Notes under the pieces: generated by a model
What the model was told of the DNA's origin: nothing
What the model saw: the letters and a program-made list of their open reading frames with translations, nothing else
Databases searched by the model: none
In this document: in pieces, positions 3,511 through 21,188 of the stretch
How the letters are laid out: every line of letters begins with the position of its first letter
Position numbering within the stretch: position 1 is the stretch's first letter
Source: Parcubacteria group bacterium
Lineage (GTDB): Bacteria > Patescibacteriota > Minisyncoccia > Phycocordibacterales > CALRBT01
Assembly: GCA_943354475.1 (NCBI GenBank)
Contig: CALRBT010000006.1
Location: 1 to 50,874, forward strand
Direction: 5' to 3'
Length of the DNA: 50,874 bases
Translations under genes and position numbers: made by a program

Positions 3511-3717
3511 CTAGCACTTCCCCTTGTTGTTCTGTTTCGGAATATCAATCGTAATGACAAAGTCTAGAATAAAGACTCGCAGAAAGAACTTTTTGTTGTC
3601 CAGTTTTAATGAACGCTTTGTTTCAATCTTTGGATGAAGAAGTGGTCTGTGGGTAAAGACTAATTTCTGTACCTCAATCGGACCATATCTCCACATATAA
3701 GGCTTATAGGGCTTCAT
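3511..3717 (-). CDS. Small hypothetical protein with its own strong promoter
   Basis: The frame extends to 3831, but the best start is ATG 3717. GGAGG lies 10 nt upstream of it and a near-consensus promoter at 3753-3781 would not transcribe the upstream part. The 68-aa product is basic and rich in Tyr, Pro and aromatic residues at the N terminus, with a beta-rich hydrophobic segment at about 44-60 (FFLRVFILDFVITIDI) that could be a core strand pair or a weak membrane segment. The family is not recognised. It is divergent from the TrpR-like gene, and the operator-like palindrome at 3834-3855 lies between them, so it may be regulated by that protein. Confidence 0.55.
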   Translation of the reverse strand: MKPYKPYMWRYGPIEVQKLVFTHRPLLHPKIETKRSLKLDNKKFFLRVFILDFVITIDIPKQNNKGKC

Positions 3718-3833: not shown

Positions 3834-3855
3834 TTTGTTCGATACATCGAACAAA
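3834..3855. promoter_or_regulatory. Operator-like palindrome 1
   Basis: Two perfect 10-bp arms (TTTGTTCGAT and its complement) flank a central AC. The site lies 29 bp before the TrpR-like start, overlapping the expected -35 region if TATTAT (3875-3880) is the -10. A copy lies on the other side of the same gene at 4291-4316. Confidence 0.65.
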
Positions 3856-3884
3856 ATAATCATCATAACCTCATTATTATTCAT

Positions 3885-4283
3885 ATGCCTCATTTATCAA
3901 AACAAAAGTTAGATGAAAGCATTCAAGATAAACTTGATGATTGCGTAGTGGCCTTTCTTGTTGAAACGAGTTATGGAACCAGGCAGAAAATTTTTAAAGA
4001 ATTGTTTACCAAAACCGAACGAATGATGATTGCCAAACGGCTAACAATGTTGTCATTGATTATTCAAAATACACCCACTCATGAGGTTGGTAGGATTCTT
4101 AAAATGAGCTCATCAACCATCTCTCGGTTTGAGTTGTTAGTAGAAATGGGACGATTTGACCAAACAGTTCGGTGGCTCAAGATGGATCGAATACGAAATA
4201 GTGTTGTTCGAATACTTGTGTCACTGCTGAGTGTTCCGTTTGAGGCAAGGAGAAAATCATTAAAACGCCTTATCGAAGAGTGA
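3885..4283 (+). CDS. TrpR/YerC-like transcriptional regulator
   Basis: The 132-aa product belongs to the Trp-repressor-like superfamily. A helical N-terminal part is followed by LFTKTERMMIAKRL (about 45-58), then a helix-turn-helix reading THEVGRILKMSSSTISRF (about 65-82). YerC/YecD-type relatives have the same layout and bind DNA as dimers. The ligand is unknown. The C-terminal 40 residues are basic and helical. Identical palindromes lie 29 bp before the start and 8 bp after the stop, which suggests autoregulation and control of neighbours (the divergent 68-aa gene and murD). The stop is TGA. Confidence 0.8.
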   Translation: MPHLSKQKLDESIQDKLDDCVVAFLVETSYGTRQKIFKELFTKTERMMIAKRLTMLSLIIQNTPTHEVGRILKMSSSTISRFELLVEMGRFDQTVRWLKMDRIRNSVVRILVSLLSVPFEARRKSLKRLIEE

Positions 4284-4290
4284 CGTGTTT

Positions 4291-4316
4291 ATTTTGTTCG
4301 ATACATCGAACAAAAT
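4291..4316. promoter_or_regulatory. Operator-like palindrome 2
   Basis: Perfect 12-bp arms (ATTTTGTTCGAT) flank a central AC. The inner 22 bp are identical to palindrome 1. It lies 8 bp after the regulator stop and about 30 bp upstream of the predicted murD -35 region. As RNA it could also form a hairpin at the end of the regulator message, but no T tract follows. Confidence 0.6.
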
Positions 4317-4342
4317 AAATACACTAGTTCAAAGTTTTAAAT

Positions 4343-20192: not shown

Positions 20193-20220
20193 TTTACACC
20201 TTTTTTTGCTGTGCTATAGT
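20193..20220 (+). promoter_or_regulatory. Predicted promoter for the SDR/flavoprotein pair
   Basis: TTTACA (20193-20198) and TATAGT (20215-20220) have a 16-bp spacer containing a T7 run. The predicted start near 20227 gives a leader of about 47 nt, and a further TATAAC box lies 4 nt before ATG 20274. Confidence 0.55.
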
Positions 20221-20273
20221 AGTAGCATCCAAGACCTCTCTATAAGGGGCTTTTGCACTCAATTATAACGATT

Positions 20274-21188
20274 ATGAAAAAAGAAAACGTACTCATTACC
20301 GGTTGTGGAGGAATGCTTGGTCTCGCTGTTTACGATGCATTCAAAGAGAAATATCAGAATGTGGTTGCAACCGATATTGATCTTAACGAGTCGTGGCTCT
20401 CAGAGCTTGATGTGAGAGATATTGTTCAGTGTGAGAAGATTTTTAATGAGGTTAAACCAAGTATTGTTGTTCACTTGGCAGCGCTTACGGACCTTGAATA
20501 CTGCGAAATGAACCAGCATGACGCTTGGAGGACAAATGCTCTTGGTACTGAAAATGTAACCCTGTTGGCAGAGCGGTATGGCGCCACGATGGTATACATC
20601 AGTACTGCCGGTATTTTTGACGGAGAAAAGGATGAGTATACTGATTTTGATAAACCAAACCCACTTAGTTACTACGGAAAATCAAAGTATCACGGAGAAC
20701 AGTTTGTTGAACGCTTTAGTAGCAAACACTATATTTTCAGAGCTGGTTGGATGATGGGTGGTGGAGTAAAGAAAGATAAAAAATTTATCAACAAAATCTT
20801 CGATCAGATTTTTAAAGGTTCAACTGAGCTAAAGGTTGTTGATGATAAACTCGGAACTCCTACTTACACCAAAGATTTTGCCAAAGCGATTGTTCGGATT
20901 ATTGACTCTGGTTACTTTGGGCTCTATAACCAAGTCTGTGGTGGAAGCTGTAGCCGTTTTGATGTTGCCGAAGAGTTCGTTAAGCTCCTTGATCTTGCTG
21001 ATAAGGTAAAGGTTACCAAGGTTGACTCTGATTATTTTAAGAAAGAATATTTTGCACCACGACCGTATTCTGAGAAATTGATTAATCTTAAATTAAATAC
21101 TCGCAATATAAATTACATGCGTCACTGGAAAGAATGTTTGGAAGAATACGCCAAAGAATATCACAAACTCTATCATGGAAAAATTTGA
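20274..21188 (+). CDS. RmlD-like sugar-nucleotide reductase (SDR)
   Basis: The product is 304 aa. It has the NAD(P) motif GCGGMLG (10-16), a DVRD segment, VVHLAALTDLEYCE (about 66-79), ISTAGIFDG and the catalytic Tyr134-xxx-Lys138 in YYGKSK. The overall layout matches the RmlD substrate-binding family (dTDP-4-dehydrorhamnose reductase and relatives). It likely reduces or epimerises a nucleotide-activated sugar for the glycan. ATG 20274 is chosen over upstream in-frame codons because the promoter start lies after 20226. It overlaps the following gene by 14 nt. Confidence 0.82.
   Translation: MKKENVLITGCGGMLGLAVYDAFKEKYQNVVATDIDLNESWLSELDVRDIVQCEKIFNEVKPSIVVHLAALTDLEYCEMNQHDAWRTNALGTENVTLLAERYGATMVYISTAGIFDGEKDEYTDFDKPNPLSYYGKSKYHGEQFVERFSSKHYIFRAGWMMGGGVKKDKKFINKIFDQIFKGSTELKVVDDKLGTPTYTKDFAKAIVRIIDSGYFGLYNQVCGGSCSRFDVAEEFVKLLDLADKVKVTKVDSDYFKKEYFAPRPYSEKLINLKLNTRNINYMRHWKECLEEYAKEYHKLYHGKI

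Follow-up and report, generated by a model that had tools for sequence, protein, structure and literature searches.

Matched palindromes flank a family of TrpR-like genes and recur as dispersed repeats in Patescibacteria genomes

Introduction

RAYT transposase genes are reported to lie between inverted REPs in every case (PMC2817692). In these systems a small gene lies between two palindromes and solo palindromes of the same class are dispersed in the genome; several gene/palindrome classes occur per genome, and the repeats are intergenic, often 3′ of genes (PMC2817692). IS200/IS605 elements likewise are small single-ORF units with hairpins near both ends. A different kind of palindrome is bound by HisR/YerC, a TrpR-family histidine repressor whose operator differs from the palindrome described below (PMC9413887).

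Here we describe a small TrpR-like gene that lies between two palindromes, as RAYT genes do, and whose flanking palindrome is also dispersed in the genome. The hairpins have the same orientation, as in IS200/IS605, but the protein has a TrpR fold and lacks the HUH/Y1 domain of the IS200/IS605 and RAYT transposases. The locus shares with HisR/YerC and TrpR the fold, a palindromic site of ~20 bp and plausible autoregulation; it differs from them in a C-terminal tail, an altered corepressor pocket, a matched downstream palindrome, dispersed copies and the lack of a conserved his, trp or other neighbour. A survey of the open-access literature, with most subscription papers and all preprints outside its scope, found nothing on palindrome-flanked TrpR-like genes or on REPs of the candidate phyla radiation.

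Results

A TrpR-like gene lies between two copies of one palindrome

We examined a window of 50,874 nt, the whole stretch of DNA analysed. The 22-bp palindrome TTTGTTCGATACATCGAACAAA was present in two exact copies, at 3834-3855 and 4293-4314, and the number of matches expected from window shuffles was 0. The upstream copy (TTTGTTCGAT-AC-ATCGAACAAA, + strand) lies 29 bp 5′ of the ATG of a 132-aa ORF (3885-4283, +), a place where homologues also have matched palindromes. The preliminary description had put the same palindrome on both sides of this gene, correctly for the upstream gap; the downstream gap, counted from the stop codon, is 9 bp, not 8 bp. The downstream copy is a perfect palindrome with arms widened to 15 bp (4288-4319, +), and its 22-bp core is shared with the upstream copy in the same orientation. 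Since both centres read AC on the + strand, the two palindromes are direct repeats.

No third copy was found in the window, as had been noted before, and a genome-wide search added only two near copies in the window genome (G000, 786 kb). One, with perfect arms (C9:20240), lies between the convergent 3′ ends of a parB-like and a relA/spoT-like gene, and the other, with 2 mismatches (C2:70159), is upstream of a mutY-like gene; these genes were named from translations inspected by eye. An Rfam scan gave nothing but tRNA above the gathering score. The divergent 68-aa ORF at 3511-3717 (-) is uncertain as a real gene: its sole support was a coding-potential call by our own gene finder, and no Pfam or NCBIfam match was found in the part searched.

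The protein has a TrpR fold and an altered pocket

The window protein scored 28.5 bits against Pfam Trp_repressor (PF01371), just above the cut-off of 27, and PF01371 matched 84/85 aligned family members (E ≤ 0.01). Against solved structures, the family profile matched HisR/YerC-like 3kor (E 9e-18), as well as 3frw and 3g1c, and matched TrpR at ~1e-5. An AlphaFold model of the window protein had a pLDDT of 84, and a Foldseek search with it returned TrpR and HisR-like structures as the nearest (probability up to 0.99, E-values of at least 0.12). The Pfam match, the HisR/TrpR profile match and the model together point to a TrpR-fold DNA-binding protein, with ~40 C-terminal residues past the TrpR domain. 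The protein fell far below the cut-offs of the NCBIfam TrpR equivalog (TIGR01321; 14.5 bits, cut-off 67.25) and of the YerC/HisR model (TIGR02531; 14.2 bits, cut-off 42.2), and the window site TTTGTTCGATACATCGAACAAA was unlike the YerC/HisR site consensus cacTTTAnnnnnnTAAAgtg. The earlier label of a TrpR/YerC-like regulator thus holds for the fold and the Pfam family but not for either NCBIfam model.

In 96 flanked members, corepressor pocket residues T44 and R54 were kept, position G85 carried a bulky residue in nearly all, S88 was mostly lost and R84 was kept in 55. Because of the changes at G85, S88 and R84, it is doubtful that the family proteins sense a tryptophan-like small ligand, and the same doubt falls on the ligand-responsive switch that had been proposed. 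On the surface of the helix that reads the DNA, by contrast, the positions of TrpR I79, A80 and T83 were very variable in the same members, which fits diversified DNA recognition. No Y1/HUH domain (PF01797) was matched among 85 family members, and no catalytic or nuclease domain was visible in the TrpR-like family.

Paired palindromes are characteristic of long family members

Among 60 order relatives sampled first, 14 had homologues, 17 genes in all, and each of these 17, plus the window gene, had matched palindromes on both sides. The sample was then widened to a phylum-wide genome set and 80 named GTDB loci, all placed in Patescibacteria by title or by their identity to sampled genomes; a broad alignment (A1) had no conserved stretch, and the locus search used a tighter one (A2). 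A strict both-sides test was passed by 95/130 distinct long members (≥125 aa) and failed by 35/130, and it was passed by 2/29 short members and by 1/318 other ORFs in the same DNA, which served as controls. The homologues were found by similarity to the already flanked first set, and the percentages hence describe this sample. The comparisons are mostly between genera, not strains, and the genomes include metagenome-assembled ones; viral contigs contained no relative. Absence of the palindrome near orthologues had been named as what would overturn the preliminary description; the opposite was found, with matched palindromes flanking most orthologues.

The single positive control ORF lies next to or within the prfA region of one locus (L183) and involves a different, GC-rich repeat. 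There, a 45-bp GC-rich hairpin (GTATACCCCCACACC...), possibly a RAYT-type REP, flanks an ordinary gene on both sides (L183:7016-7895).

The unit is compact (median 506 bp): the upstream palindrome lies a median of 11 bp before the start codon and the downstream one a median of 8 bp after the stop codon. The palindromes vary by lineage and include CGATATATCG cores, CAGTTAACTG, CCATATATGG, ATAC-N6-GTAT and others. Where the centre is asymmetric, the flanking copies were direct repeats in 17/18 pairs and the non-palindromic spacer was kept, an orientation that a symmetric dimer operator would not require. Since RAYT genes are described as lying between inverted REPs throughout, the direct arrangement, found in the window too, differs from theirs.

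The position of the downstream copies close to stop codons, together with many solo sites near 3′ ends, one of them within a terminator-like stem, could mean that the palindromes are bidirectional terminators or mRNA-end hairpins whose pairing is incidental. However, the downstream copies are not followed by a T-tract (2.7 T on average in 8 nt), a scan of the window region found no terminator-like site, and the same sequence flanks the gene on both sides and co-varies with the protein. We regard this explanation as very unlikely.

Two further arrangements were observed. A short TrpR-like class without paired palindromes (L034, L035, L043, L046, L048, L058, L059, L060 and L071) has the same neighbour genes in many genomes and in this resembles a conventional regulator. 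At L068:1779-2845 (G294:C2), three palindromes alternate with two genes: a SET-domain-like ORF, identified by eye, lies between the first and the second palindrome, and the TrpR-like ORF between the second and the third. In a cassette-like manner, the palindrome may carry other genes.

Palindrome and protein vary together

Palindrome distance tracked protein distance (Mantel r 0.40, p<0.001), and between nearest protein neighbours it was 0.25 versus 0.58 overall. The TrpR domain taken alone gave 0.40, slightly more than the 0.38 of the remaining sequence, and shared ancestry contributes to the correlation. One genome (G042) carries three paralogues with three palindrome classes, each class dispersed separately, and this supports the pairing independently of shared ancestry. 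On this evidence, the TrpR-fold dimer very probably binds its own palindrome. The upstream copy would overlap the gene's promoter, and the protein probably represses its own gene.

Co-variation also bears on the possibility that an ordinary Y1 (RAYT) transposase mobilizes the palindromes as REPs and the TrpR-like gene is a passenger. Y1_Tnp proteins did occur in 17/22 genomes searched, but a Y1 protein was not found in G000, G185 or G218, though G000 and G185 carry the repeats, and the palindromes co-vary with the TrpR-like protein. We regard this explanation, too, as very unlikely.

Genomes with the gene contain dispersed solo copies

The window genome and seven order relatives whose TrpR-like genes use the core CGATATATCG had 4-32 copies of it each, and 15/16 relatives without a detected flanked gene had 0-3; a reversed control pattern occurred 0-1 times. 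The exception (G015) had 9 copies and no gene detected. In G015, G011 and G012 a single site per genome was inspected and proved to be a true palindrome, like an orphan repeat, and a wider-profile search of these three genomes for a missed gene found none. In several other gene-less genomes the inspected core sites were not palindromic and appeared chance-like.

Among the intergenic regions that hold solo sites in G014, G042 and G000, 13 were convergent and 2 divergent (two-sided binomial p ~0.007, based on our own gene calls), a bias opposite to the operator pattern. The neighbour genes of solo sites did not match between these three genomes, apart from tsaD, in which G014 and G042 each have an in-frame copy. 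The proposed link to a cell-wall operon is not supported: murD adjoins the gene in no sampled relative other than the window genome, and solo sites share almost no neighbours, so a cell-wall regulon was rejected.

Eight solo copies are in frame in protein genes, which we named by inspection (tsaD twice, dusB, alaS, ychF, two glycosyltransferase-like genes and a methyltransferase), and fall in hypervariable loops. Comparison of tsaD showed no clean insertion, the loop being hypervariable in all relatives. Other in-frame palindromes were seen in tsaD of relatives at ~aa 231 (L271) and ~aa 291 (L267), with the sequences AGCGTCAACTTGGAAGC... (37 bp) and ATCATACGATACATCGTATGAT. Orthologous CYTH-like genes of G129 (L234, G129:C5) and G185 (L251, G185:C4) have in-frame hairpins at one shared position but of two different classes, which would reflect either a hot spot or concerted change. 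Copies in frame within genes, and a smaller number of copies, distinguish these repeats from REPs. Rickettsia palindromic elements also lie in frame within conserved protein genes, but they are longer than the 20-30 bp palindromes here and, to our knowledge, have no known partner gene, whereas the Patescibacteria palindromes have a matching one.

Some copies are embedded in longer hairpins. In the window genome, the core TTTGTTCGATATATCGAACAAA of the C9 copy occupies the exact centre of a terminator-like stem (AAAAACCTCCGCAATTATT...AATAATTGCGGAGGTTTTT), within a 64-bp perfect palindrome (L128:5220-5283, ~20219-20282 of the contig). Palindromy reached at least 4 bp past the shared part in 24/194 copies, with ~1 expected. 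This excess suggests that copies inserted into hairpins already in place, that they arose by template switching, or that a hairpin is under selection. G185 carries eight dispersed copies of one 26-mer, seven of them identical including the asymmetric loop, and several lie exactly 1 nt 3′ of a stop codon.

These distributions have to be weighed against an ordinary autorepressor, in which a TrpR/HisR-type dimer would act on two operators around its own gene, by looping or a double block, and the other copies would form a small regulon. The TrpR fold, the protein-site co-variation, the closeness of the upstream copy to the start in most members and the window-genome copy upstream of mutY all agree with it; HisR and TrpR use palindromes of ~20 bp, and many genomes have an autoregulated hisR (PMC9413887). 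Such a repressor, however, needs neither a downstream copy at the stop codon nor a directional centre, nor in-frame copies in housekeeping genes, nor a bias to convergent regions, and almost no targets are common to different genomes. As a full account of the locus we judge it unlikely, and of the autoregulated switch envisaged in the preliminary description it is autorepression that stays plausible.

Units are present or absent at corresponding positions

Occupied and empty sites were found at three loci, compared between genera or species, not strains. At the alr-ddl junction, a hairpin is present in G185 (...TAAT-hairpin-AAGGGAAATATG), and in G129 and G218 alr and ddl overlap as TAATG, without the hairpin. 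In a Doudnabacteria exopolysaccharide operon, some genomes have the unit between genes A and X, others have it between X and Y, and the unoccupied junctions have a 2-nt gap or a 4-nt overlap. At the rplL locus of one genus, G064 has rplL, palindrome, gene, palindrome and tRNA in that order, G087 has rplL, one palindrome and the tRNA, the gene being absent, and G195 has neither gene nor palindromes. The G087 arrangement is best read as gene loss that left one palindrome. At a second locus of this genus, the unit is present in G195, and G064 retains a decayed N-terminal remnant without palindromes. Vertical inheritance also occurs, several units having fixed places; in genus g225, for example, the unit beside a ROK-kinase-like gene keeps its place and the palindromes differ between species.

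Discussion

Genome comparison brought out gene-specific flanking, co-variation, dispersal with the gene, direction, and presence or absence at corresponding positions. From these sequence patterns, we lean toward reading the ORF and its paired palindromes as a single compact genetic unit of a large Patescibacteria family, with REP-like spread of the palindrome and a TrpR-like trans-acting factor. The arrangement looks like an undescribed gene-plus-repeat system, not a cell-wall switch. The plain two-operator autorepressor is the main rival to this reading and is partly compatible with it.

In such a unit, the palindrome might be what spreads or persists, as REP-like solo copies, and the TrpR-like protein would be its specific trans-acting factor. 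Because no nuclease domain is visible in the TrpR-like protein, we suppose that it would recruit or shield some host DNA-processing step. Solo copies could have arisen when a palindrome inserted without its gene, or they could be scars of units lost between direct repeats. Points against the unit reading are that the protein shows no catalytic domain that would provide a route of movement, that an operator could just as well occupy the upstream position, and that the window genome has few copies. The units with fixed places, the hypervariable loops that hold the in-frame copies, the 35 long members that fail the both-sides test and the palindromes of G015 also count against it. More tentatively, and as a possibility that we do not favour, the repeats may constitute a new class of self-propagating palindromes, REP-like but kept and spread by a nuclease-less TrpR-fold protein, with many specificity pairs across Patescibacteria.

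More than 90 pairs of TrpR-type proteins and sites would provide a natural library for studies of DNA recognition, and "Trp repressor" annotations in Patescibacteria genomes probably do not mark tryptophan regulation. If the unit reading is true, the very reduced genomes of Patescibacteria would host a widespread repeat system in which a repressor-type partner replaces the transposase, and with this system the spread of palindromic repeats could be put to concrete tests.
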